Source: Paenibacillus thiaminolyticus | GTDB taxonomy: Bacteria > Bacillota > Bacilli > Paenibacillales > Paenibacillaceae | NCBI RefSeq assembly: GCF_007066085.1 | Contig: NZ_CP041405.1 | Span: 2,914,001 to 2,978,000 of the forward strand | Direction of reading: 5' to 3' | DNA: 64,000 bases | Part shown: positions 1-12,176 of the stretch, piece after piece | How the letters are laid out: each line of letters opens with the position of its first letter | Numbering within the stretch: the first letter of the stretch is position 1 | Program-made: the position numbers and the translations under genes | Notes under the pieces: model-generated | Told to the model about the DNA's origin: nothing | Seen by the model: only the letters and a program-made list of their open reading frames with translations | Database searches by the model: none

Positions 1-520
1 CCGAGAAGTTTTTCTCTTTGGAGGCTCGCCCCCAAGTTTCGATACATATGAGGCTTATCTCAAAAGAGCATCGACCTTGAAAGAGGCGGTTCTGCAGCAG
101 CCAACTGACTTGCCGGAGGGCTATACCTTAAGCAAAGCGAATATTTATTTCGTGTTCACTCCTAAGGATTTTGCAGCAGTGAAAGCCGAGGCTAAAAAGC
201 TAGGCAAACAAATATATTCCAAGAAGATGAACGTAACAAAAAGCCACCACATCGGGTTAACGTACACGAATGGAGAAGACTTTATCTCATTTCAGAGTTT
301 TCATTTTGACGAGGAAGATGTAAAAGATAAGAAGAGGAAAGAAAAAGAATACACCTATACATCCGCTAAAGACAGAGAAAAGGAAGATCCGAAGCACGAA
401 GGAAGAAATTCTCTTAGCTGGGGGGAAGGTGAAAAAAGCTTTCAAATCGTAACCAATAAGGGTAATCCGTTGACGGAAGAAGACCTGATCAAGCTGGCGA
501 AAACGGCAGTAAAAAAATAG
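1..520 (+). CDS. DUF4367-like protein, 3' part only
   Basis: The frame is open from the first bases of the window to the stop at 518-520, so only the C-terminal 172 or so residues are present and the start lies outside. The sequence has LPEGYTLSKA, then a very Lys/Glu/Asp-rich charged stretch, and ends NSLSWGEGEKSFQIV...LTEEDLIKLAKT. A Ser-Trp strand followed by 'LTEEDLIKLA' resembles the C-terminal end of DUF4367-type extracytoplasmic domains, often fused to anti-sigma or membrane proteins. Internal TTG or ATG codons could mimic a start, but the open upstream frame argues against using them. The function of the whole protein cannot be stated. Confidence 0.55.
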   Translation, partial: REVFLFGGSPPSFDTYEAYLKRASTLKEAVLQQPTDLPEGYTLSKANIYFVFTPKDFAAVKAEAKKLGKQIYSKKMNVTKSHHIGLTYTNGEDFISFQSFHFDEEDVKDKKRKEKEYTYTSAKDREKEDPKHEGRNSLSWGEGEKSFQIVTNKGNPLTEEDLIKLAKTAVKK

Positions 521-570
521 CTTTGTAAACGGAATGATTGTAGAAATGATGAAGATATAATAGGTCTTGT

Positions 571-606
571 AAAAGCCCATGCAGTCTGAAATTGGATGCA
601 TGGGCT
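571..606. terminator. perfect 10-bp hairpin after the first gene
   Basis: AGCCCATGCA (574-583) pairs perfectly with TGCATGGGCT (597-606). There is no T-run on the + side. On the - side the stem is followed by TTTT, so it may end leftward transcription from the peptide gene and IS remnant better than rightward transcription. Confidence 0.5.
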
Positions 607-850
607 ATCTACTCCCCGGGCAATGGAGCACCATCGCCATCATAGCTAACTCTTCGCTTCGTTGGTATCGAGCCAAAAGTTCCGTAGAGAACTGCCCGTT
701 ACGGTAAGCTGCACGTTCTCTTAGCGCTCATGGTGCCCCGCCCCCAACTGTTCCGTTGCTTATGCCTGCAACACTTGGTTCAGATGGGCCGAGGCTCCTT
801 GCTGTGGCTCTTCTTTTTGCCATTTGCTTTTTACATAAGGATACGCACTT
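605..850 (-). pseudogene. decayed IS256-family transposase fragment
   Basis: Read on the minus strand, one frame gives ...LNQVLQA-stop-ATEQLGAGHHER-stop. A shifted frame then continues AAYRNGQFSTELLARYQRSE and stops at 605. These blocks match the N-terminal third of IS256/Mutator transposases (LNxVLQAEATEQLGAxxxER ... YRNG ... G-FSTELFARYQRSE). The two in-frame stops, the frameshift and the direct joining of the YRNG and GQFSTEL blocks (the sequence normally between them is missing) show a long-dead copy. The left limit is set by the stop; the right limit is approximate. Confidence 0.7.
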
Positions 851-871
851 AGCTAGCTCTCTCTAGCTCTC

Positions 872-970
872 TTACCAAGGGTGGACACTTCCTGAACCGC
901 CAGTAAACGTGGATGCTGTTGTGGTTATTATAACAGTGCTAAGAAGGACATTAAAAGTTAGTTTTTTCAT
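872..970 (-). CDS. putative RRNPP signal-peptide precursor (AloP/AimP/Phr-like), 32 aa
   Basis: A short ORF starts with ATG 8 nt after the stop of the HTH-TPR regulator and ends in TAA. It begins MKKLTFNVLLSTVIITTT, a basic start followed by a hydrophobic export-signal core. It then continues with a small polar segment rich in Thr, Gly and Ser and ends GSGSVHPW. Size, position directly 3' of an RRNPP-type regulator, signal-like N-terminus and distinct C-terminal hexamer all fit a secreted pro-peptide cut to a 5-10 residue pheromone and re-imported by Opp. The mature form, plausibly within SGSVHPW, is inferred only. There is no strong Shine-Dalgarno, so translation may be coupled to the regulator. 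Too short for ordinary gene callers. Confidence 0.7.
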   Translation of the reverse strand: MKKLTFNVLLSTVIITTTASTFTGGSGSVHPW

Positions 971-978
971 TTTGTTTC

Positions 979-2199
979 TCACGCTAATTCCTCCAATTCT
1001 TTAACGATTCGTTGGTAGTAATTGCTTAACAGTTCTAGCGTAAACTGAGGTGAAACGTTATTCGTTAAATGGATATGCATAGCGGTATTGAGAACTTCTT
1101 TTTCCTTGGCTACATCATCTACTTTGGAATACCAAAAGGCAGACTGAACCATATTCGTAATGCCTTTGCCGGTGTCGCCCGCAGCCAAATAATATTCTCC
1201 CTTGACTCGAAGATAATCAGCGTATGTAGCGCAAACTAACGGATTTCTCTCATCAACGACAGCGGGAGTTGCCTTGTCGTTCTCCAAAACAACTTTAGCG
1301 CCTTCGAGGTTGCCCAGCTGTAAGTACAATTGCAGAAGTTGTTTGGTCGCCGGAATAACGGAGGCACTTCTGCACGTATCAAGAAATGATTCGAGCTGTT
1401 TGATTGCTTGGTTGACATTTCCTTTTTTTGCATTGAAGAATGCATCCATAAGTATGACATTATCTTTTGTTTGAGGGTATGTGAAATTTTTGTACTGTAT
1501 AAGATACAGTTCTGACTCTTTATATGCTCCAATACTGAAATAAGCATCTATAAGGACACCGAGCGCATCTGCTTTATATTGGCTTTCTCCGCTTTTCAAT
1601 ACTTCTTTGCAATAATCAATGCACTCGTAATGATTGCTCAGGGTGTATGCATGAATGCCTAATTTATAATACAAACACACACGTTCCTCGGACGATAGGA
1701 AATCAACATAATGCAGAATATACTTTCCAGTCTGGTAAGTTTCCTTCAATCTGCTGAAATCATTTCGTTCAATAAGATAACGTTGGTACATGCTTTTAGC
1801 TATGTAAGGCATAATGCCATGAGAACGTGAGTGATTAAGGATGAGGCCGTACAACGAAAGTTTGATGGAGTCATTATTGATGGAGTCTGTATCACGATAC
1901 AACTTTCCTACTAAATACAGGGTATCTTCATTTGGTGCTTCAAGGAACTTTCCGGCTATTTTTGTTATCAACGACGGGTGCTCAAGTGTTTCCAACTCAT
2001 TTTGCAAAATAGCATATATGACTTCCGATTTATGTCCAATCTCGATGTACTGTTCTACGATGTCACTATGGGGAATGCCTAATACTCCAGCGATGGACAA
2101 GATGGATTGAAAATCAGGACGTTTAACCTCGCCGTTTTCAATTCTCGACAAGCTGCCCTTATCAACGCCGACCGCTTCTTGCAGCTTCGACAGACTCAT
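979..2199 (-). CDS. HTH-TPR quorum-sensing regulator (RRNPP, AimR/AloR-like)
   Basis: 406 aa. Residues 1-45 are most of an Xre-type helix-turn-helix (SLSKLQEAVGVDKGSLSRIE). The rest is an all-helical TPR-type superhelix with repeated pairs of aromatic-rich helices, for example CLYYKLGIHAYTLSNHYECI and KADALGVLIDAYFSIGAY. This is the layout of RRNPP peptide receptors such as PlcR, AimR and the AloR proteins of Paenibacillus. The pheromone-like ORF directly behind it supports that assignment. The usual first HTH helix (about 15 residues) is absent: an in-frame TAG lies 4 codons upstream of this ATG, and the upstream siderophore operon's terminator ends only about 30 nt away. The start is therefore either genuinely short or the product of 5' damage. 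Confidence 0.75.
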   Translation of the reverse strand: MSLSKLQEAVGVDKGSLSRIENGEVKRPDFQSILSIAGVLGIPHSDIVEQYIEIGHKSEVIYAILQNELETLEHPSLITKIAGKFLEAPNEDTLYLVGKLYRDTDSINNDSIKLSLYGLILNHSRSHGIMPYIAKSMYQRYLIERNDFSRLKETYQTGKYILHYVDFLSSEERVCLYYKLGIHAYTLSNHYECIDYCKEVLKSGESQYKADALGVLIDAYFSIGAYKESELYLIQYKNFTYPQTKDNVILMDAFFNAKKGNVNQAIKQLESFLDTCRSASVIPATKQLLQLYLQLGNLEGAKVVLENDKATPAVVDERNPLVCATYADYLRVKGEYYLAAGDTGKGITNMVQSAFWYSKVDDVAKEKEVLNTAMHIHLTNNVSPQFTLELLSNYYQRIVKELEELA

Positions 2200-2221
2200 T
2201 TCTTTCTGCTATCTCTTTCCA

Positions 2222-2260
2222 TCAAATAAAACAACCGGGACGCACGAGGCGCCCCGGTTG
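2222..2260 (-). terminator. rho-independent terminator of the siderophore operon
   Basis: On the minus strand AACCGGG...CCCGGTT (arms 2253-2259 and 2233-2239) is followed by GTTTTATTT. It lies just after the binding-protein gene. Confidence 0.85.
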
Positions 2261-2293
2261 CCGTTATCCGGCTTGCAGCAAGCCGGTGATTGA

Positions 2294-3256
2294 TTATTGA
2301 ATTGCCGCTCCTATTTCTTTTACCATTTCCTCTACGGAGACGAGGCCGCCGCCCGACAGATACCAGTAGCTCGGATCGAGGTAGACGATGTGCCCTTCCT
2401 TGTAGGCCTTGGTCTTCTTGACCAGTTCGTTCTCTACGACTTGCTTCGCTGACGATTCGCCGCCGACGACAGCGCCTCTATCGATAACGAACAGATAGTC
2501 TGGATCCTTCTCCACGATATATTCGAAGGATACAGGGTCTCCGTGAGTCGATGTTTTAATGTCCGGATCAACCGGCGGGAAGCCGAATACGTCATGGATA
2601 ATGCCGAAGCGGGAGCCGGCGCCATAGGCGCTGATTTTGCCGTCGTTCGCCAGAATGATGAGCGCGTTTTTGTTCGACGCCGTCACTTTCTCATTCAATT
2701 GCTTGATATCTCCATCGCTCTTCGCAAGCTCCGCTTGTACTTCGGATTCTTTGTTGAAGATTTTGCCGAGGTTTTCCGCGTTCTCTTTGAAGGACTCCAT
2801 ATAACGGTCCGTGTCAATATCCATGTATATCGTCGGCGCGATGGCCTTGAACTCTTCATACGACGACGCTTGCCGGCCGGCAATGATGATCAGGTCCGGC
2901 TTCAGGGCGTGAATCGCCTCGAAGTCCGGCTCCTTCAAACCGCCCGCATTCACATACTTCTCGTCTTCGAATTTTTTCAAGTAAGGAGGCAGGCTGTTCT
3001 TTGGCAGCGCCGCGATGTCTACACCCAATTTGTCCAGGGAATCGACGACTCCGTAGCTGAATACAACGACTTTAGACGGGTTCTTCTTCACCGTCGTTTC
3101 GTCCAACTCATGCTTAATAACGATTTCTTCCGCTGTGTTGTTCGCTTCGGCTCCAGTAGATGTCGAACCATTGCTGCTGTCTGTCTTATTGGAACCACAT
3201 GCTGCAACGAGGGTTGCCATCATGGCTATAACCAGAATTAGGACTGTTTTCTTCAA
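2294..3256 (-). CDS. yclQ: siderophore ABC transporter, substrate-binding lipoprotein (YclQ-like)
   Basis: 320 aa, TTG start with a GAGGTG ribosome site 8 nt ahead. Residues 1-20 are a lipoprotein signal with lipobox LVAAC, so Cys20 would be lipidated and membrane-anchored. The mature part is a helical-backbone periplasmic-binding fold (PSKVVVFSYGVVDSLDKLGVD near the start, HALKPDLIIIAGRQ in the first lobe, KDPDYLFVIDRG in the second) like FatB/CeuE/YclQ, which bind Fe(III)-petrobactin and related catecholates. It is the last gene of the yclNOPQ-like operon, 122 nt after the ATPase gene. The exact siderophore cannot be read from sequence. Confidence 0.88.
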   Translation of the reverse strand: MKKTVLILVIAMMATLVAACGSNKTDSSNGSTSTGAEANNTAEEIVIKHELDETTVKKNPSKVVVFSYGVVDSLDKLGVDIAALPKNSLPPYLKKFEDEKYVNAGGLKEPDFEAIHALKPDLIIIAGRQASSYEEFKAIAPTIYMDIDTDRYMESFKENAENLGKIFNKESEVQAELAKSDGDIKQLNEKVTASNKNALIILANDGKISAYGAGSRFGIIHDVFGFPPVDPDIKTSTHGDPVSFEYIVEKDPDYLFVIDRGAVVGGESSAKQVVENELVKKTKAYKEGHIVYLDPSYWYLSGGGLVSVEEMVKEIGAAIQ

Positions 3257-3378
3257 TTTCTTTCACCTCTACCATGTCTTTTTATAAATATATTTATCGC
3301 CGTTAATATCACAAATTCGCACTATCATGGCACGACAATGCGATATTACCGAACGGTGTGACCCCTTTTTGTGTTGAG

Positions 3379-4137
3379 CTATGCATAATAAACGCAGATC
3401 TTATTATCATTGAAGTTCTCGATGCTCATGTCCATATCATAAATGTCATGGAGAACCGCGCTGTCGATAATGTCATCGGTCGCGCCCTCCTTGATGACTT
3501 TGCCATTCTTCAATGCCACGATATAGTCGGAATAGCAGGAGGCAAAGTTGATATCGTGAATGACGATGACAATCGTTTTGCCGAGCTCATTGACGAGTCT
3601 GCGCAATATTTTCATAATCTGCACGGAATGCTTCATATCCAGGTTGTTCAGCGGTTCGTCAAGCAATATATACTCTGTATTCTGCGCGATAACCATCGCG
3701 ATATAAGCCCGCTGCTTCTGCCCGCCGCTCAGCTGATCCAGATACTTGTGCTGCATGTCGGCAAGCCCCATATATTCAATCGCTTCATCGACGTACTTCC
3801 AATCTTCGTCGGACAATCTCCCTTGCGAATAAGGGAAGCGCCCGAAGGAGACCAGCTCCCGAATCGTAAGCCGCAGATTGATATGGTTCGACTGCTTCAG
3901 AATCGAGATCTTTTTCGCCAGCTCCTTGCTGTCCCACTGGCTGATTTCTTTCCCGTCAATGATCACTTCTCCGGAATCCTTCGAAATGAGCCTGCTTATG
4001 ATAGACAGCAGCGTACTTTTGCCTGCGCCATTCGGACCGATGAACGACGTGATTTTTCTTTTGGCAATCGTAACCGAGATGTCCTCGATCACGTTTTTGC
4101 CGCCATATTGTTTGGATACGCCTCTTACTTCTACCAT
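3379..4137 (-). CDS. yclP: siderophore ABC transporter ATPase (YclP-like)
   Basis: 252 aa FepC-type ATPase. Walker A GPNGAGKST is at about residues 34-42, the signature LSGGQKQR near 138, Walker B YILLDEPLNNLD near 160, and the switch His in IVIHDINFA. It would drive the two permeases to import ferric siderophore. Its start overlaps the end of the upstream permease by 7 nt, so translation is coupled. The order permease-permease-ATPase-binding protein matches Bacillus yclNOPQ. Confidence 0.9.
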   Translation of the reverse strand: MVEVRGVSKQYGGKNVIEDISVTIAKRKITSFIGPNGAGKSTLLSIISRLISKDSGEVIIDGKEISQWDSKELAKKISILKQSNHINLRLTIRELVSFGRFPYSQGRLSDEDWKYVDEAIEYMGLADMQHKYLDQLSGGQKQRAYIAMVIAQNTEYILLDEPLNNLDMKHSVQIMKILRRLVNELGKTIVIVIHDINFASCYSDYIVALKNGKVIKEGATDDIIDSAVLHDIYDMDMSIENFNDNKICVYYA

Positions 4138-5081
4138 GATTTGTTCTCCTTCATTAGAAGATAAATAAAGTAGACCCCGCCGACGAAATTGATGATGACG
4201 CTAAGCGTCGTGGAGAAGGTGAATATCCGCTCCACAATGAGCTGGCCGCCCACAAGGGCGATAATGCTGATGAGGACGGAGCCGGCGATAAGATAGCTGT
4301 GCCGGTACGTCTTCAGAAATTGATACGTTACGTTCACGACGAGCAAGCCGAGAAAGGTAATCGGCCCGACAAGCGCCGTGGAAATTGAGATAAGTACAGC
4401 GACGATAAAGAGCAGCCGCTTCACGACATAGTCGTAATTGACGCCGAGGTTGATCGCCTGCTCCCTGCCTAGCGCAAGCACATCCAGATACTTGATGAAG
4501 CGCAGAAAGTAGAGCGTGACGAGCAGAAGCAGCACGCCTCCCAGAAGGAGCAGCTTCGTATTGACATGGGTGAAGCTGGCGAACATTTTGTCCTGCACGA
4601 TCATGAACTCTGCCGGGTCAATCAGAACCTGCATGAAGGTGGACATGCTTCCGAAAAAAGTGCCAAATATAATGCCAATAAGCAGCAGGAAGTATATGTT
4701 CTGATTCTCGCCCTTGAATATAAGCTTGAACAGCAGGCCCGAGAACACAACCATCAGTCCGACGGACACCAGGAAGTCCACATTGCTGTTCATCATCATC
4801 AGTGTCTTCGAGCCAAATACGAAGATGACGATGGTCTGAATCAGCATATACAGCGAATCCAGGCCCAATATGCTCGGTGTCAGTATGCGGTTGTTCGTAA
4901 TCGTCTGGAATACGGTTGTGGCAAATGCGATCGAAGCGCCTGTCAGGACAATCGCCAATACTTTGATTGTTCTCTTCGGCAGCACGTAGTCCCAGTTGTC
5001 CCCCAGCTTGAAGAACAGGAACAACCCTATCAGCGTGAGAGCAAGGACAGCAAGAACCCCCGTTTTCGCTTTATAACCCAT
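4131..5081 (-). CDS. yclO: siderophore ABC transporter permease (YclO-like)
   Basis: 316 aa FecCD-family integral membrane protein with about eight to nine hydrophobic helices. The conserved cytoplasmic coupling region is visible as LGREQAINLGVNYDYVVKRLL, followed by the family block ALVGPITFLGLLVVNVTYQFL. It would pair with the YclN-like permease to form the translocation channel. It overlaps the upstream permease gene by 11 nt and the ATPase gene by 7 nt, so the operon is tightly packed. Confidence 0.88.
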   Translation of the reverse strand: MGYKAKTGVLAVLALTLIGLFLFFKLGDNWDYVLPKRTIKVLAIVLTGASIAFATTVFQTITNNRILTPSILGLDSLYMLIQTIVIFVFGSKTLMMMNSNVDFLVSVGLMVVFSGLLFKLIFKGENQNIYFLLLIGIIFGTFFGSMSTFMQVLIDPAEFMIVQDKMFASFTHVNTKLLLLGGVLLLLVTLYFLRFIKYLDVLALGREQAINLGVNYDYVVKRLLFIVAVLISISTALVGPITFLGLLVVNVTYQFLKTYRHSYLIAGSVLISIIALVGGQLIVERIFTFSTTLSVIINFVGGVYFIYLLMKENKSW

Positions 5082-6024
5082 GTGCCCTTCTCCTCATTAA
5101 CATATAGACGAATATGGCACTTCCGATGACGCCGACCGTCAAGCTGATCGACAATTCATACGGGAAGATGATGATGCGTCCCAAAATATCGCAGAACAGA
5201 ACGAATACGGCCCCGAGAAGCGCGGTATGCGACAAGCTATTCTTCAAATTATCGCCTCGGTAAATGGAAACGATATTCGGAATAATGAGACCCAGGAAAG
5301 GAATCGTTCCAACGGTAAGCACGACCGTGCACGTAACGAGCGCCACCAGGATCAAGCCGATGTTGACCACCCGCTTGTAGTTGAGCCCGAGGTTTTTCGA
5401 GAAATCCTCGCCCATCCCCGCTACCGTGAACTTGTTCGCATACAGGTATGCAATCACGAGAAGCGGAATGCTGATATACAGCAGCTCATACCGCCCCTTG
5501 ATAATCATCGAGAAGTCGCCCTGCAGCCACGAGGACATGTTCTGAATCAAATCATACTTATATGCAAAAAAGGTGGAAATGGAACTAATAATATTGCCAA
5601 ACATCAATCCGACGAGCGGAATGAAGATGGTGTCTTTGAATTTGATGCGATCCAATATCTTCATAAACAGCATCGTGCCTGCCAAAGCGAAGACGAACGC
5701 AACGAGCATCTTCACCAGCGGGCTCGCCGTCGTGAACAGCATCAAAGAGACGAGTATCCCCAAGCGGGCCGAGTCAAGCGTCCCTGCCGTCGTGGGCGAG
5801 ACGAACTTGTTCCGGCTAAGCTGCTGCATAATCAGGCCGCATATGCTCATGCTGACCCCGGCGAGAATGATACTGATAAGCCTTGGCACCCGGCTGACGA
5901 GAAAAGTATGAACCTTATCGTCGTTCAGATTGAACAAATCCCATGGCTTAATGTCTATGACCCCGATAAACAGGGAAATGAAGGCAAACAGGATAAGCGC
6001 AATAACCAGATATCTCTTCTTCAT
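5071..6024 (-). CDS. yclN: siderophore ABC transporter permease (YclN-like)
   Basis: 317 aa FecCD permease and first gene of the operon. The chosen ATG (MKKRYLVIALILF) has GGAAAGAGA just ahead of it. A longer in-frame extension to 6120 would run into the Fur box and reads as leader sequence, so it is rejected. Family blocks are FLVSRVPRLISIILAGVSMS near the start, GEDFSKNLGLNYKRVVNIGL for the coupling helix, and GTIPFLGLIIPNIVSIYRG. It would form the importer membrane pore together with the YclO-like partner. Two Fur boxes upstream indicate iron repression. Confidence 0.9.
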   Translation of the reverse strand: MKKRYLVIALILFAFISLFIGVIDIKPWDLFNLNDDKVHTFLVSRVPRLISIILAGVSMSICGLIMQQLSRNKFVSPTTAGTLDSARLGILVSLMLFTTASPLVKMLVAFVFALAGTMLFMKILDRIKFKDTIFIPLVGLMFGNIISSISTFFAYKYDLIQNMSSWLQGDFSMIIKGRYELLYISIPLLVIAYLYANKFTVAGMGEDFSKNLGLNYKRVVNIGLILVALVTCTVVLTVGTIPFLGLIIPNIVSIYRGDNLKNSLSHTALLGAVFVLFCDILGRIIIFPYELSISLTVGVIGSAIFVYMLMRRRAHGL

Positions 6025-6104
6025 GTCTCTTTCCTTACAATTAAGAGTATAGGCGTTCCGGATGTATGGTCTGCATTCCCCATGTTCACCCGCATGCATA
6101 ACAA

Positions 6105-6119
6105 TGATATTCATTATCA
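6105..6119. promoter_or_regulatory. Fur box, proximal
   Basis: TGATATT-C-ATTATCA matches the 7-1-7 Bacillus Fur consensus TGATAAT-N-ATTATCA except for one base. It lies 81 nt upstream of the YclN-like start. Confidence 0.85.
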
Positions 6120-6188
6120 TTAACGCGTTGTAACAGTTATGATTATAACGCTTCCCCCGGGATAGTCAATGGATTTGGCCAAAATAAT

Positions 6189-6203
6189 TGATTATCATTC
6201 TCA
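6189..6203. promoter_or_regulatory. Fur box, distal
   Basis: On the minus strand TGAGAAT-G-ATAATCA is a second 7-1-7 Fur-type site about 80 bp further upstream. The surrounding AT-rich stretch (6176-6245) probably holds the operon promoter. The rest of the gap up to 6425 shows nothing recognisable. Confidence 0.75.
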
Positions 6204-6424
6204 ATTAGAATCATTATTATAATGAAATTATTTGATAAAAACGATTAGATCGGCTGCGGATAGAGTGATGCTTCAACAGGACGCCGCGCTGCCAGTTCAT
6301 GAACGATGCTGTGGCGCCTCGGCGCTGCAAAGGGTAGCCCGACCAGCCTGTCCCGACTCGCGTGGATACCGGCCAAAAGGAGCCGAGTAACTGACATTCC
6401 CGCTTGTGAGGCCGGATTCATCTA

Positions 6425-6455
6425 AGAAAAAAGCCCGGTGAACGCATCACCGGAC
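6425..6455 (-). terminator. terminator of the dicarboxylate symporter gene
   Basis: On the minus strand CCGGTGA-TGCGT-TCACCGG is followed by GCTTTTTT. It is almost the same hairpin as the one after the DUF3886 gene, with compensating stem changes. Confidence 0.9.
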
Positions 6456-6482
6456 TCTCATCTTGTCCGAGCAAGGATAGCA

Positions 6483-7673
6483 TTATGAGTTGGCTGACAG
6501 ACGGTTCTTGGCGGCCCGCTTCTTCTTCACGGCGTGAATGATCTGGGCAATCGCACCGTCTCCGGTTACGTTGGCTGCCGTTCCGAAGCTGTCCTGAGCG
6601 ATGTAGAGCGCGATCGCGAGGCTAACCATGGCTTCATCGAAGCCGAGCATCGACTGGAATAAGCCGATAGCCGCCATCACTCCGCCGCCTGGAACGCTGG
6701 GAGCGGCGATCATCGCGATGCCGAGCATGAATATGAAAGGCACCATAGTGCTCACCGTCAGCGGCACGCCATGAATGTAAAGTATGGCGCTCGCGACCGA
6801 AGTAATCGTAACTGCCGATCCGGTAATATGAATCGTCGCACATAACGGCACGACAAAGTTCGTCACTTCTTCGTCTGTCCCGAGCTTCTTCACTTGCTGC
6901 ATCGTCACCGGAATCGTCGCCGCCGAAGATTGCGTGCCGAGCGCCGTGAGGTATGCCGGGAGCATCGTGCGCAGCAGCGCCAGCGGGTTGCGCTTGTTCA
7001 CTGCTCCTGCGATCGCATACTGGCACAGGATGACCACGAAATGCAACACGAGTATGACGGCGAATACCTTGACGAACACTTGCAGAATGAACGCGACTTC
7101 GCCTGCCTGCGTCATATTCATAAAGAGCCCCGCGATATGAAACGGCAGCAACGGAATAATAATCGCTTGTATCGCCTTGGCTACAATATCCTTGAATTCC
7201 AGCGAAGCGGTAAGAAGCGCATTCGTCTTCACGAAGGTGATGCCAACCCCGAGCAGGAAAGACAACAGCAGCGCCGTCATAATGTCGAACACGGGCGGCA
7301 TAGGCAGCTCGAAGTAGGTGGTCAGCAGCATCTCCTCCGGATTCTTGGCTGCCAGCCCGGAAGCCCCGGACAGCAGCCTGGGAAAAAACGACGACGCAAC
7401 GCCATAAGCGAGCATCCCGGATAATACCGTAGATACATATACGATAAATGTAGTCAATCCGAGGAGCTTCCCGGCTCCCCTGCCAAGCTCCCCGATCCCC
7501 GGAACAATAAAGCCCAAAATAATGAGCGGAATCAGGAAGCTCAGAAACTGACCAAATACATGATTTAATGTCGCAAAAATTCGTATGAACCAGTCCGGCA
7601 TAATAAGCCCTGCTCCAATGCCGAGCATAATCGCAATGACAATGCGCGGAAACAATCCGAATCGCATATTCAT
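6483..7673 (-). CDS. dicarboxylate/amino acid:cation symporter (DAACS family)
   Basis: 396 aa secondary transporter of the GltP/DctA fold that takes up C4-dicarboxylates or acidic amino acids with Na+ or H+. Family hallmarks are the first re-entrant hairpin with the serine-rich motif (TALGTQSSAATIPVT), the second hairpin APSVPGGGVM, and the substrate/cation helix IAQDSFGTAANVTGDGA. The N-terminus starts directly with the first helix (MRFGLFPRIVIAIMLG). It stands alone with its own terminator. Substrate choice cannot be fixed from sequence. Confidence 0.85.
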   Translation of the reverse strand: MNMRFGLFPRIVIAIMLGIGAGLIMPDWFIRIFATLNHVFGQFLSFLIPLIILGFIVPGIGELGRGAGKLLGLTTFIVYVSTVLSGMLAYGVASSFFPRLLSGASGLAAKNPEEMLLTTYFELPMPPVFDIMTALLLSFLLGVGITFVKTNALLTASLEFKDIVAKAIQAIIIPLLPFHIAGLFMNMTQAGEVAFILQVFVKVFAVILVLHFVVILCQYAIAGAVNKRNPLALLRTMLPAYLTALGTQSSAATIPVTMQQVKKLGTDEEVTNFVVPLCATIHITGSAVTITSVASAILYIHGVPLTVSTMVPFIFMLGIAMIAAPSVPGGGVMAAIGLFQSMLGFDEAMVSLAIALYIAQDSFGTAANVTGDGAIAQIIHAVKKKRAAKNRLSANS

Positions 7674-7810
7674 AGACCTTCTCCCCTCTGACTACCTGAG
7701 AAAAACAAGATTACTATTTTGTCTCCCCAGCAAATACAGATGTTCCTCTAGTAAGTACATCTCAATATACTAACATATCATGCATCCACATGACAATTCC
7801 CGTATACAAA

Positions 7811-7837
7811 AAAAGCCCGATGAACGGATCATCGGAC
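7811..7837 (-). terminator. terminator of the DUF3886 gene
   Basis: On the minus strand CCGATGA-TCCGT-TCATCGG is followed by GCTTTTTTT. Confidence 0.9.
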
Positions 7838-7851
7838 CTTCTCTTACCATG

Positions 7852-8130
7852 TTATTTATACTTGCGCCAATCCATGCTGCTGTTGTTCAACAAATAATCG
7901 AAGTCATTGTCCAGCCTCTTCTGCTCTGCCGCCCGGGCTTGCTCCGCCTGGCGTCTCGCGTCTTCCTTCCGCTGCGATTCCTCCGCCTTCAATACAGTAG
8001 CCTGCTCCTTCAGCTGCGCTACGATATCAGGCCGCAGCAGATCCTTGAGCGTCGCCGGCTTATCTTGGGCAGATTGGGCAGTCCCTTCCGGAGCGGCGTT
8101 CCGGCCTCTCTTCTTCGCCATCGCACTCAC
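7852..8130 (-). CDS. DUF3886 protein
   Basis: 92 aa. Composition and layout fit the DUF3886 family (YqkE-type in Bacillus): a basic, disordered N-terminus, then LKDLLRPDIVAQLKEQ, a long charged coiled-coil-like helix rich in Glu, Lys, Arg and Ala (about residues 45-75), and the family C-terminus DFDYLLNNSSMDWRKYK. No function is known for the family. The ATG at 8118 (MAKKRG) is an equally good start. Confidence 0.75.
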   Translation of the reverse strand: MSAMAKKRGRNAAPEGTAQSAQDKPATLKDLLRPDIVAQLKEQATVLKAEESQRKEDARRQAEQARAAEQKRLDNDFDYLLNNSSMDWRKYK

Positions 8131-8309
8131 CTCATCCCCATTATAGCAGAATCTCCCTTATCCGGCACCGTGGCATGAACTGCGGGGAGCCTTGCTGCCT
8201 GCGCGCGTTACGCCTTTCGATCCGTATTCGTTCCACAAATACAATTTGGGCGCCGCTCTCTCCCAATCCACTGCTCAGGAAAATCCCCCTTGCCACCTTT
8301 CAAGCGATG

Positions 8310-8343
8310 ATGTATCCTTATGATATATATCATTATGATACAT
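8310..8343. promoter_or_regulatory. PadR-type operator/promoter
   Basis: An extended inverted repeat runs from ATGTATC (8310-8316) to GATACAT (8337-8343), with an inner ATGATATATATCAT palindrome. The ATGT...ACAT ends are typical of PadR binding sites. It ends 14 nt before the padR start codon and so is a likely autoregulatory site. Confidence 0.7.
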
Positions 8344-8357
8344 TAGAAGGTGAGACA

Positions 8358-8912
8358 ATGGCTGCTAAGCACAGTGACACGACCTATGCGATTCTCGGGC
8401 TGCTGACGACGGACTGCCATACAGGCTACGACATCAAGCAGATGATGGACACCAGCCTCAATCATTTCTGGAAGATTAGCTACGGACAAATCTATCCGAC
8501 GTTGAAAAAGCTGGTCGAGGACGGCTGGGCTGTGGTAACCGATACCGCCCAGGAATCGAAGCCCGACAAAAAAGAGTACCATATTACGCCCCAAGGAATG
8601 CAGGCGCTGCAGGCCTGGCTGCAGGAACCGCTTCAACAGCTCCATACGTACAAAAATGAATTTTTGCTCAAGCTGTTCTTCCACCGTCATCAAGAGCCGG
8701 ACGCAACGCTCGGGCAGATCGAGCGGTTCAAGTCGATGCTCCAGGAGCGGTATCAGATGTACGAAGCGATCGAAAATCAGATCATGACGCATTGTTCGGA
8801 TGAAGAAGATTTGCAATATTGGCTGCTTACGCTCGACTATGGCAAGCGCGTCGTTCGGGCGGAGATGGAATGGAGCGATGCGGCGATCCGGCAGCTTCAA
8901 CAGAATAGATAA
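8358..8912 (+). CDS. PadR-family transcriptional regulator
   Basis: 184 aa. The ATG at 8358 follows AAGGTGAGA; a longer frame from 8175 runs through the operator and is not used. Residues 5-80 form the PadR winged helix (YAILGLLTTDCHTGYDIKQMM ... YGQIYPTLKKLVEDGW ... KEYHITPQGMQALQAWL). The C-terminal half is the Vir-type dimerisation helix pair with LQQLHTYKNEFLLKLFFHRH. It probably represses its own operon, which includes the DUF4188 gene 12 nt downstream; the ligand is unknown. Confidence 0.88.
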   Translation: MAAKHSDTTYAILGLLTTDCHTGYDIKQMMDTSLNHFWKISYGQIYPTLKKLVEDGWAVVTDTAQESKPDKKEYHITPQGMQALQAWLQEPLQQLHTYKNEFLLKLFFHRHQEPDATLGQIERFKSMLQERYQMYEAIENQIMTHCSDEEDLQYWLLTLDYGKRVVRAEMEWSDAAIRQLQQNR

Positions 8913-8924
8913 GGAGGAGACACA

Positions 8925-9398
8925 ATGGGAAAATCAATCTTTGGCGGGCGCTACACGGTAGAGGAGAGAGAGCAGGATATTGTCGTGTTCCTAATCGGAA
9001 TGAGGGTGAACAAATGGCGGGCCGTTCATCAATGGTGGCCGGTCTTTACAGCGATGCCGCCCATGATTCGGGAATTGTATACGAACCCGGAGCTTGGCTT
9101 TCTTTCTTTGGAGACGACCGTCAATCTAAGAACGATATTGATGGTTCAATATTGGCGCTCCTTCGAGGAACTGACAGCCTATGCGCGGGGGCCGGAGCAT
9201 TTGAAGGCCTGGCGGCGATTCTATCAGGCGGTCGGGAAGACGAATGCGGTCGGCATCTATCACGAGACGTATATCGTGCGCGGAGGCCAGTTCGAGGCCG
9301 TCTACGGCAATATGCCGAAGTTCGGCCTGGCCAAGGCGCGGGGACACGCGCCAATCACGCCTCGGACCGATTCCGCGGCGCAGCGGGTCCGGGCTTGA
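8925..9398 (+). CDS. DUF4188 protein (putative monooxygenase-like)
   Basis: 157 aa with AGGAGGAGA ahead of the ATG, co-transcribed with padR. Family features are IVVFLIGMRVNKWRAVHQWWPVFTAMPPM at residues 20-48, then TTVNLRTILMVQYWRSFEELTAYARG, and HETYIVRGGQFEAVYGNMPKFGLAKA. This is a ferredoxin-like alpha+beta barrel related to ABM monooxygenases and phenylacetaldoxime dehydratase-like proteins. PadR-linked copies often respond to toxic small molecules; that role is inference here. Confidence 0.75.
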   Translation: MGKSIFGGRYTVEEREQDIVVFLIGMRVNKWRAVHQWWPVFTAMPPMIRELYTNPELGFLSLETTVNLRTILMVQYWRSFEELTAYARGPEHLKAWRRFYQAVGKTNAVGIYHETYIVRGGQFEAVYGNMPKFGLAKARGHAPITPRTDSAAQRVRA

Positions 9399-9401
9399 GT
9401 G

Positions 9402-9442
9402 AAGACTCCCATCTGTCCAATGCACGGGCGGATGGGAGTCGA
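9402..9442. terminator. convergent 10-bp hairpin
   Basis: GACTCCCATC (9404-9413) pairs with GATGGGAGTC (9431-9440), between the DUF4188 gene and the oppositely oriented infC-like gene. The T-runs are poor. Confidence 0.55.
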
Positions 9443-9456
9443 TTGCATTGCTCAGA

Positions 9457-9945
9457 CTATGCTTCCGCACCTGGCACCGGATCGACCTGTACCATCGCCT
9501 GCTTGCCGCTCAATTGAATGCCGGTGCGCTTCGTTCCCGCCGGACGCAAATCCTGCAACAGCCGTTCGAGGATCTGCTGCGCCAGAGCGCCTTCCTTGCC
9601 CTTGATGCGGATGACGAGCTGCACCGAATCTCCGGCGCGCAGGATCCGTTCCGCCTGATTTTTCTTCGTCTCATAGTCATGATCCTCGATCTGCGGCGTC
9701 AGGCGAATCTCCTTCACCTTCGGCTGCCGCTCCGCCTTGCGGGCCTGCTGCGTCTCCTGCTTGGCCGCTCCCGCTCCAATCAGCTTGCAGGGAGGCGGGC
9801 TGCTCATCAGCGACAGGCAGACGAGATCCACCTTCAGCTTTTTCGCCATCGCGAGCGCCTCCGAGGTCGGCACGATGCCGAGCTGTTCCCCGTTCAGACC
9901 GGTCAATTCGACTTCGGCAGCCCGTATCTTCTCGTTCTTAATCAT
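9457..9945 (-). CDS. infC: translation initiation factor IF-3 paralogue, isolated and diverged
   Basis: 162 aa. Residues 1-60 keep the IF-3 N-domain (IRAAEVELTGLNGEQLGIVPTSEALAMAKK) and residues 80-150 the C-domain (PKVKEIRLTPQIEDHDYETKKNQAERIL). The linker differs strongly: the usual PPVCRIMDYGKF-type block reads PPPCKLIGAGAAKQ, and the C-domain basic RG region is VIRIKGKEG. The gene starts with an ordinary ATG behind AGGAGG, unlike the rare AUU/AUA start of normal infC. It also lacks rpmI and rplT neighbours. It is therefore probably a second copy with an altered or regulatory role. Confidence 0.8.
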   Translation of the reverse strand: MIKNEKIRAAEVELTGLNGEQLGIVPTSEALAMAKKLKVDLVCLSLMSSPPPCKLIGAGAAKQETQQARKAERQPKVKEIRLTPQIEDHDYETKKNQAERILRAGDSVQLVIRIKGKEGALAQQILERLLQDLRPAGTKRTGIQLSGKQAMVQVDPVPGAEA

Positions 9946-10008
9946 TGTGAATCCTCCTGCCCATTCGCTATAATGAACCCATATTACCGCCTGGAAGGAG
10001 ATATATCA

Positions 10009-10341
10009 ATGTCTCGCAAAGAAATCGAAGAACAGATTATCCGCAACTATGAACGGGACGAGCAGATGATGATCCTGGTGTTCGCCCAGTGGTGCGTCAA
10101 TCACCAGCTTGATCCGGCCGAGCTCTATCAGCAGGCCTATCCGCAGCAGGGCGTCAACCCGGCGCTGCAGCAGGCCATCGGCCTCACGGTGCCGAAGGAA
10201 GAGGCCGGCGACATTCCGGACGACACGGTGCTCGGCGTCCTCGCGCTCTACGGCAACGATGATCTGGCCTTCGTCGTGACGGAGGCCATCAAGCATCGGG
10301 CCGCACGCGCCAAGGCTGCCGGCGGCAGCGGAGCCTCCTGA
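10009..10341 (+). CDS. conserved hypothetical protein, 110 aa
   Basis: The ATG follows GGAAGGAG at good spacing; a longer frame from 9448 lies antisense to infC and is not real. The protein starts MSRKEIEEQIIRNYERDEQMM, is acidic and helical, has DDTVLGVLALYGNDDLAFVV in the centre and ends in an Ala/Lys/Gly tail. No signal peptide or membrane segment. It is divergent from the IF-3 paralogue and shares its 63-bp upstream region. I do not recognise a function. Confidence 0.65.
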   Translation: MSRKEIEEQIIRNYERDEQMMILVFAQWCVNHQLDPAELYQQAYPQQGVNPALQQAIGLTVPKEEAGDIPDDTVLGVLALYGNDDLAFVVTEAIKHRAARAKAAGGSGAS

Positions 10342-10411
10342 CAGACGCCGGACGCGGGACGCTGGTTGGGCAATAGCCACCCGCCAATTCGCGCCGCTAA
10401 CGCCGCTCGGC

Positions 10412-10520
10412 TGATGCAGCACGGGCCTGACCGTCGTACTGCGCGTATTGGACGTCCGCTGTGCAGCACAGCCCAGACGTTGTCCTGCGCATGACTGACG
10501 ACCGCTGTGCAGCAGCGCTA
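10412..10520. repeat. about 47-bp imperfect tandem repeat with TGCAGCA core
   Basis: Two full copies and one partial copy: from 10412, from 10460 (both ending GAC(G/A)(T/A)CCGC) and from 10506. Each begins TG(A/T)TGCAGCA or similar. The clearest shared block is GACGtCCGCTGTGCAGCA at 10451-10468 against GACGaCCGCTGTGCAGCA at 10497-10514. The rest of the 10342-10643 gap holds no gene that I can support. Confidence 0.5.
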
Positions 10521-10643
10521 TCCCCGCCTAGCCCAGCGGGAGAGGCGAACATTTTCAGCAAGAAAAGGAAATGTGCGAAGCCGCCCCGAAGTAGGAAGTA
10601 GATAATGATAGATCAGTTTGTTGCACCAAAGGAGAACAATACT

Positions 10644-11096
10644 ATGCAGATTCGAAAATGGAAAACGGAGGAACAGCCTCCGATGGAATTGCTGCTGCTG
10701 GCAGACCCTTCTGCCGAGCTCGTGCACGAATACCTCGGGCGGGGAACATGCTTCCTTGCAGAGCAGGAAGGGGAAGTCATCGGCGTCTATGTGCTGCTGC
10801 CGACCCGGCCGGGCACAATCGAGCTGGTCAACGTGGCCGTCGCAGAGAGCCATCAAGGACAGGGCATCGGCAAGCAGCTCGTCCTTCACGCGATCGAGAC
10901 CGCCAAGGCGCTCGGCTGCCAGACGATAGAAGTAGGTACAGGCAGCACCAGCATAAGCCAACTCGCGCTCTACCAGAAATGCGGGTTCCGAATGACGGGC
11001 ATTGACCGCGATTTCTTCGTTCGCCATTATGAGGAGGAAATCTACGAGAACGGCATGCTGCTGCGGGACATGGTGCGTCTGGGTCAAGATCTGTAA
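10644..11096 (+). CDS. GNAT-family N-acetyltransferase
   Basis: 150 aa. The start is the ATG with AAAGGAGA 9 nt before it; an upstream in-frame ATG at 10605 lacks a ribosome site. The acetyl-CoA pyrophosphate loop is visible as VAVAESHQGQGIGKQLV (Q-x-x-G-x-G, about residues 66-82), preceded by the beta-bulge strand IELVNV and followed by LALYQKCGFRMTG. It would transfer an acetyl group to an unknown amine. It stands alone. Confidence 0.8.
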   Translation: MQIRKWKTEEQPPMELLLLADPSAELVHEYLGRGTCFLAEQEGEVIGVYVLLPTRPGTIELVNVAVAESHQGQGIGKQLVLHAIETAKALGCQTIEVGTGSTSISQLALYQKCGFRMTGIDRDFFVRHYEEEIYENGMLLRDMVRLGQDL

Positions 11097-11210
11097 CAGT
11101 CGAGCAGAGAACAAGATGCCGTGTTCCGGCTACCCTGCCGCAGCAGAGCGGGAATGCGATGCATGCGACTGCCACCATGTCCGCTCGCCGCTGCCGGCAA
11201 TGAGGCGGGC

Positions 11211-11239
11211 TGGTCAAGTAACCGATCCCACAGTATAAT
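11211..11239 (+). promoter_or_regulatory. promoter of the DUF559-like nuclease gene
   Basis: TGGTCA (11211-11216), a 17-bp spacer and a perfect TATAAT (11234-11239). The predicted transcript starts around 11246, only a few bases before a terminator hairpin. Confidence 0.6.
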
Positions 11240-11257
11240 CAACGTAAGAGACGAAGA

Positions 11258-11302
11258 ACGTCCCGATCCTTTCCGCGCGAAAGGAATCGGGACGTTTTTA
11301 TT
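11258..11302 (+). terminator. leader terminator / possible attenuator
   Basis: ACGTCCCGATCCTTTC-CGCGC-GAAAGGAATCGGGACGT forms a long, nearly perfect stem followed by TTTTATTTT. It sits between a promoter and the next ribosome site, 21 nt before the GTG start. Confidence 0.8.
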
Positions 11303-11322
11303 TTGTGGAAGGAGGAGGTAAG

Positions 11323-11991
11323 GTGAGTTTTGAAAAGGCGCATGAGGCGTTTATTCAGCACCATTTGCAGAGAAGGACGGGAGAGCGAAGGGGGCGGCTG
11401 GAGCGGGGACATCGTGAGGCCGAGAAGCTGTTTTGCCGCAACGTATGGTGGCCCCTTCGGGGCAGCTTTGACCAGTTGCATCCGGAATACGAAGTGCTTG
11501 ATTGGCGGGGCCTGTCCTATTTCTGCGATTTTGCCTGGCTGTCGCCGCAGGTCAAGCTGATCATCGAGATCAAAGGCTTCGTACCGCACGTCCGAAATAT
11601 GGACAGGCAAAAGTACTGCAATGAGCTGAACCGGGAGACGTTTTTGTCCGCTATTGGTTTTCAAGTCATCTCCTTCGCTTATGACGATGTCGCTGACCGC
11701 CCTGAACTGTGTGTGGCGCTGCTGCGCATGGTGATTAGCCGCTATCACGCGGACTCCGTGCCTGTCAGTCTGCACAGTCTCGTGGAACGGGAGACCATCC
11801 GGCTCGCTTGCATGCTCGGCCGTCCGATCCGTCCCATCGACGTGGAGGCGCATTTATGCGTAAACCATCGCAAAGCGGTGGGAACGCTGCAGTCGCTCTG
11901 CTCCAAGGGATGGTTTACGGCTGTGACCGGAGGGGCAGGCAAATATGTCGTGCGTTATGAGCTAAGGCCGGGCGCGCTGCAGTATTTGTAG
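11323..11991 (+). CDS. DUF559/Vsr-like PD-(D/E)XK endonuclease with C-terminal winged helix
   Basis: 222 aa. The GTG start follows AAGGAGGAGG. Residues 60-140 carry a restriction-type core: DFAW supplies the Asp, and LIIEIKGF supplies E-x-K. Then NRETFLSAIGFQVISFAYDDV matches the DUF559/Vsr layout in which the end of the domain reads G-x-V-I-x-F. The last 70 residues (LGRPIRPIDVEAHLCVNHRKAVGTLQSLCSKGWFTAV) look like a winged-helix DNA-binding module. Expression is likely limited by the leader terminator. A degenerate repeat array starts 2 nt after the stop codon. Target unknown. Confidence 0.65.
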   Translation: MSFEKAHEAFIQHHLQRRTGERRGRLERGHREAEKLFCRNVWWPLRGSFDQLHPEYEVLDWRGLSYFCDFAWLSPQVKLIIEIKGFVPHVRNMDRQKYCNELNRETFLSAIGFQVISFAYDDVADRPELCVALLRMVISRYHADSVPVSLHSLVERETIRLACMLGRPIRPIDVEAHLCVNHRKAVGTLQSLCSKGWFTAVTGGAGKYVVRYELRPGALQYL

Positions 11992-11992
11992 A

Positions 11993-12176
11993 AATCCTGC
12001 ATTTCTACATCATTTCTGATCGCCGATATGGTGCTCTGAACGATTCCTGCAAAAATACATCATTTTCGCGCTCAAAGTGAAGTCGAGCTAGTCAGAGGGT
12101 GAATATCCTGCATCCCTGCAGTATTTTTCCTCAAACCGACGTTTTCTGGTGAAAAATACTGTAGTTTTGCAGCTTT
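11993..12176. repeat. degenerate ~50-bp-period repeat array (locus A)
   Basis: Copies of a roughly 22-bp motif, consensus like A-T-CCTGCA-AAA-TACA-CAATTT, begin at 11993, 12043 and 12103. A reverse copy occupies 12151-12175 (GAAAAATACTGTAGTTTTGCAGC). Starts are 50, 60 and 48 bp apart with unrelated sequence between. The same motif recurs at 22.3-22.75 kb. Confidence 0.65.

Follow-up and report, generated by a model that had tools for sequence, protein, structure and literature searches.

The window analysed here is a stretch of 64,000 nucleotides of Paenibacillus thiaminolyticus (contig NZ_CP041405.1, positions 2,914,001 to 2,978,000). Near its start, a gene for an HTH-TPR receptor is followed on the minus strand by a short ORF for a candidate propeptide. 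The features of the locus are as follows:

979..2199, minus strand: receptor gene, 406 aa left from ATG 2199, with an HTH without helix 1 and a TPR-like helical domain (ORF, Pfam, comparison with the orthologue P0001)
872..982, minus strand: candidate propeptide gene, 36 aa, GTG start at 982, MRNKMKKLTFNVLLSTVIITTTASTFTGGSGSVHPW (ORF list and a -4 start that recurs in the family)
605..721, minus strand: short remnant with resemblance to transposases of the Mutator/IS256 type, behind the propeptide gene (Pfam, E 0.001, below the cut-off)
2205..2210, no strand: junction at which about 0.21 kb of genome G007 is missing (two BLAST segments, reversed coordinates)
2209..2211, minus strand: in-frame TAG stop, 4 codons upstream of ATG 2199 (read directly)
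2230..2262, minus strand: terminator-like hairpin that separates the receptor from the upstream gene, with 14 pairs and a T-rich tail (terminator scan)

Upstream of the receptor, genes resembling those for ferric-catechol siderophore uptake occupy window positions 2294-6120 on the minus strand. They comprise an SstD-like binding protein, together with two permease-like ORFs and a gene for an ABC ATPase that were recognised from their translations. A search of window positions 1-6000 for RNA families gave none at the gathering threshold.

A sequence-only reading of this DNA had proposed an RRNPP-type pair, made up of an HTH-TPR regulator and a short ORF with an export-like start. Both were present (979-2199 and 872-982), and the adjacent small propeptide gene, with an N-terminus that is export-like by our hydropathy rule, is an RRNPP feature. 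The arrangement was compared across the loci examined, a part of the family. These contained 104 recognisable receptor ORFs or fragments, of which 96, the window copy among them, were at least 330 aa long. A signal-like short ORF (by the hydropathy rule of this analysis) lay between -60 and +150 nt from the stop of 75/96 receptor ORFs, between -4 and +20 in 59/96 and exactly at -4 in 30/96, and none was found by this filter behind the other 21. A short ORF behind orthologues, a check set beforehand, was thus present behind most family receptors. As a control, the same filter was applied to the 47 remaining window ORFs with 150 aa or more: a signal-like short ORF followed 13/47 with the loose filter, which is therefore weak evidence on its own, and 2/47 at -4 to +20.

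The control result is what one would cite for a short ORF that arose by chance and is no signal gene, but divergent receptors are likewise followed by an ORF in this position, with a basic start and an HPW end, and the last 12 codons are kept better than the first 24. Between the window copy (L001) and L028, the last 12 propeptide codons differed by 6 synonymous and 5 non-synonymous changes and the first 24 by 3 and 26; between L001 and L016, the counts were 6 and 4 against 4 and 26. These counts make the C-terminal end the better conserved part of the propeptide, and we regard a chance origin as highly improbable. The family-wide repeat of the arrangement supports a putative RRNPP-type pair, and the predicted HTH-TPR fold is consistent with it. 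The type proposed earlier is supported on these grounds, with the correction that this particular copy is truncated.

The start of the propeptide was revised. ATG 970, chosen previously, would give 32 aa after a gap of 8 nt. The -4 start is kept in the relatives (GTG in L012, L013 and L028; ATG in L016), so GTG 982, which gives 36 aa and a 4-nt overlap (GTGA) with the receptor stop, is most likely the better one. As read from the ORF, the propeptide has a basic and hydrophobic N-terminus and the C-terminus GGSGSVHPW, and its gene looks intact. SVHPW was identical in the window copy, L012 (genome G007) and L013 (genome G009, Paenibacillus sp. 2.1), and the ends of paralogue peptides included IIHPW, SIHPW, VIHPW, GIFPW and GHHPW; in the loci examined, 29 of the 96 longer receptor ORFs (330 aa or more) had a PW-ending peptide. 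The impression that this C-terminus is unlike known pheromones gives way to an HPW end that is common in the family, and the variability expected of it across copies was replaced, near the window copy, by conservation. Two propeptides in tandem were observed behind the L003 receptor of the window genome (G000:C1:2308637-2309863; GGIFPW and GSIHPW) and behind the L029 receptor (GSIHPW and GSIYPW).

The receptor had been taken for half of a working pair, and its truncation was missed: HTH helix 1 and the original start are lost, and so is the upstream region. Against G007 in reversed coordinates, the window contig aligned in two BLAST segments (1063-9796 with 1-8689, and 9791-12000 with 8900-11109). 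G007 has the same neighbour genes and the missing segment, which comprises the upstream region together with the receptor start and the N-terminal part of the HTH; the deletion was compared between species, with one genome per species. The open frame of the receptor begins just 3 codons before ATG 2199, and the deletion together with the in-frame TAG restricts the start to ATG 2199 or later. Among the proteins listed, the intact P. thiaminolyticus orthologue P0001 has 429 aa and is 99% identical to the window receptor, whose first Met is residue 24 of P0001; residues 1-23 are missing. In Pfam, HTH_3 begins at profile position 10 in the window receptor (31.3 bits vs a cut-off of 23) and at position 2 in P0001. 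In the model of P0001, which is all-helical and confident (pLDDT 90.9, pTM 0.81), HTH helix 1 comprises residues 11-21 and is wholly absent from the window receptor. The TPR matches of the window receptor in Pfam were weak and below the cut-offs, and phrog_32768, a phage protein family of unknown function, matched nearly the entire protein (E 1.8e-67). Structural matches of the receptor model included NprR, Rap and AimR, but unrelated TPR proteins scored about as high.

An ATGGTAA-type element was found upstream of the receptor in 8/8 close relatives aligned, and it is absent upstream of ATG 2199 in the window. Terminator-like sites in 850-2420 numbered 2, against 1.1 expected by shuffling. 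The promoter scan, which was limited to sigma-70-type sites, gave no promoter-like match on the minus strand between the hairpin and ATG 2199, and 4 sites in the scanned region as a whole vs 4.1 expected. The window pair is probably without a promoter of its own. A perfect palindrome, AAACAAATGTTTGTTT, was noticed upstream of the intact G007 receptor, with near copies upstream of L028 and L030. It was rejected as a family operator, not being general among relatives, and no regulon is proposed from it (5 near-matches in the window genome vs 2 for the reversed control); three clustered near-matches sit inside predicted ORFs of a sugar/glycosyltransferase region.

Loss of helix 1 alone is no proof of lost DNA binding, and the pair might still work, the 406-aa protein binding DNA well enough and answering an SVHPW-type peptide. 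The frame is open, the 99% identity to the intact orthologue extends along its length, and HTH_3 is still above the Pfam cut-off, but helix 1 and the ATGGTAA-type upstream element are absent and the hairpin stands ahead of the receptor. We consider a working pair unlikely, and to the same degree its transcription, whether a new promoter drives it or the siderophore operon reads through into it. A receptor dead for DNA binding could also serve as a peptide sink or dominant-negative partner that damps the HPW systems of the same genome. Its TPR part is retained (Pfam; model of the orthologue), and paralogues in the window genome have IIHPW, GIFPW/SIHPW and GHHPW peptides; the lack of a promoter-like site ahead of the receptor speaks against such a role, to which we give very little credence. 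The window copy is read as probably a dead receiver. Since the remaining receptor frame is open and near that of G007 and the peptide ORF is intact, its decay would be very recent or incomplete. Between the window and G007, the receptor showed 4 synonymous and 6 non-synonymous changes, too few for a selection test, as were the changes in the peptide.

On the other side of the pair, an IS256 remnant had been interpreted as a sign of a rearranged locus edge. A weak Transposase_mut match does lie behind the propeptide gene (28 aa, E 0.001, 18.5 bits vs the Pfam cut-off of 21); the remnant lies within DNA common to the window and G007. Window 1-2210 was 97.9% identical to G007 and the 8.7 kb upstream 93.0%, and a recent exchange between lineages may have taken place. 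Further broken copies were found. In G009 (L013/L040), the same receptor end is lost, there is an internal stop too, and the peptide ORF is whole; by eye, its breaks differ from those of the window on both sides, with more of the upstream part kept and the sequence resuming deeper in the gene. The receptor of L028 is interrupted, and its peptide ORF is whole. Among the loci examined, damaged receptors occurred in 3/5 loci of the window subclade (L001, L013 and L028; not L012 and L016), and we infer that these three arose as independent events.

Taken together, the window locus very probably represents a copy in decay from a receptor-propeptide family of RRNPP type that has expanded in the P. 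thiaminolyticus/dendritiformis/alvei group; its receptor was probably disabled by a deletion. In intact members, the receptor HTH would bind DNA, and the propeptide would be exported and trimmed to a C-terminal 5-8-mer, e.g. GSVHPW. The mature peptide would be re-imported and bind the TPR domain, and the peptide-bound receptor would alter transcription from its own promoter and of its neighbours. For some members, the regulated genes nearby would include one for a Spo0E-like phosphatase, through which the system would act on sporulation. In the window strain, the deletion of about 0.21 kb would have run from the upstream region past the original start and through HTH helix 1, leaving the receptor behind a terminator-like hairpin with DNA binding and own-promoter transcription of the pair probably lost. 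The locus advises caution, since an open TPR frame with a seemingly complete peptide after it can be no more than a relic.

Members of the family occur as several paralogues in one genome, and a candidate pheromone end containing W recurs among them. A search with the window receptor gave 11 matches in its own genome, the query and a fragment of 70 residues among them; of the 19 genomes of the genus, 17 had matches, the window genome being one of these. With profile A1 (51 proteins from 120 of 155 listed, plus the window receptor) at E<=1e-30, 17/197 genomes of the bacterial family matched, all within 1 of 19 genera; about 8 candidates were scored per genome in this survey, and its copy numbers are lower bounds. 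Relatives were also found in 5 Brevibacillus phage records and 7 plasmid records (5 Brevibacillus, 1 P. larvae, 1 P. thiaminolyticus). Among the matches listed in the protein search, a few Paenibacillus species outside the group were also named, e.g. P. donghaensis and P. azoreducens. On the plasmid of P. thiaminolyticus SY20 (NZ_CP106993.1, L160), a family receptor is accompanied by a Spo0E family gene and by a propeptide that starts at -4 and ends in GGIHPW.

In the loci examined, a Spo0E-like ORF, recognised by motif, lay downstream of 34/104 family ORFs or fragments. By a looser motif, 6/96 receptors had a Spo0E-like C-terminus, and 0/6 of these had a peptide ORF by our filter; the stricter first motif for fused Spo0E gave 0/104. 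Pfam confirmed PF09388 in 3/3 database relatives (P0109, P0115 and P0117), chosen as their listing showed the domain. In the window genome, 7/8 Spo0E-like matches stood beside or inside RRNPP-type receptors among the loci found, two of them inside receptor frames of 465 and 467 aa and one beside an AloR-type receptor:

G000:C1, positions 218330, 605886, 925038, 1706961, 1708487, 2310322 and 3795770: Spo0E-like matches with a receptor
G000:C1, about 605886-607211 (L006): receptor-Spo0E fusion, no peptide ORF behind
G000:C1, about 1707287-1708615 (L007): receptor-Spo0E fusion, no peptide ORF behind

No receptor was found near the match at 2148007, and the window locus has no Spo0E-like neighbour, the listing for the genome being empty between 2310447 and 3795770. 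The L007 fusion comes directly after the receptor-peptide-Spo0E set L005. The Brevibacillus phages Sundance (L049, KT151959.1) and SecTim467 (L050, KT151957.1) both encode a family receptor with a short ORF behind it, whose end is TDNPGY or TDDPGY, as well as a Spo0E-like gene. An AloR-type receptor, gp69, is present in SecTim467 too; phage Jenst (L051) has a short receptor frame. Tentatively, and as a reading we think somewhat doubtful, the family could be wired to sporulation via Spo0E, with the pheromone of a neighbour controlling Spo0A dephosphorylation by the fusion directly and not by transcription; the window copy would then have lost the receiver and kept the signal. Relatives with a Spo0E-like domain beside or fused to the receptor are more interesting than the window copy, and the fusions would make the link between peptide signal and sporulation directly testable.

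The layout of the window family is also that of AloR-AloP of P. polymyxa. In the available text of PMC7425212, an HTH-TPR receptor is followed directly by a signal-like propeptide of 32-50 aa, there are many paralogues per genome, a Spo0E-like gene lies behind part of the systems, and the AloP13 peptide SHGRGG and its receptor control a downstream spo0E-like gene. The peptide ends differ, being SHGRGG in AloP13 and xHPW in the window family. Classing the window family as Alo was rejected, as the receptors of AloP13 orthologues (n = 4), which here represent the AloR side in place of AloR1-16 by name, gave no phmmer or hmmsearch match. Cross-family hmmsearch of A1 against A2, the AloR-type profile (39 proteins from 120 of 422 listed, plus one orthologue), gave matches for 6/40 and 17/52 proteins at no more than 26.8 bits, against at least 528 bits within families. 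Profile-profile comparison of the window family with AloR-type receptors gave a probability of 95.3% with 13% identity over 384 columns, a similarity expected for distant members of one superfamily. The SHGRGG pattern occurred in 56/394 genomes; the reversed-pattern control was similar in size, so most of these matches are due to chance, and 4/30 loci examined encode an AloP13-like propeptide. Seven genomes picked by SHGRGG (four with AloP13 orthologues) matched A1 only up to query residue 110. Receptors of AloR type occur in the window genome as a second, separate family, one at 514 bits and one more distant; they lie at G000:C1:925571-926929 and 3382664-3383911. The window family is Alo-like in layout, yet distinct from AloR by sequence.

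For NprR-NprX, Rap-Phr, PlcR-PapR and AimR-AimP, unrelated TPR proteins score about as high against the window family, and among PDB sequences, HTH fragments alone matched the window receptor (E 0.048 or worse). Figures and supplements aside, the available texts of PMC7425212, PMC10075063, PMC9765709 and PMC4909266 name neither the window locus nor a receptor-Spo0E fusion. A candidate for the family as a whole is RRNPP_Detector cluster 8, presented in 2023 as a novel candidate subfamily of Paenibacillaceae; according to the text available from that paper (PMC10075063), it occurs in Paenibacillaceae chromosomes, plasmids and phages, and in B. laterosporus LMG 15441 a cluster-8 system shares a plasmid with an AloR-AloP system, one of each. 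The LMG 15441 plasmid that we examined, pBRLA33, has one A1-type and one AloR-type (A2) receptor, each then followed by a short ORF, and the window family also occurs on plasmids and phages, matching the description of cluster 8. From the two receptors of pBRLA33 we strongly infer that the window family is cluster 8, catalogued and uncharacterised. The pair once called hidden has abundant homologues that in all likelihood were catalogued in 2023, and the window locus itself is a damaged copy of this candidate signalling family, which would already stand in a public catalogue.
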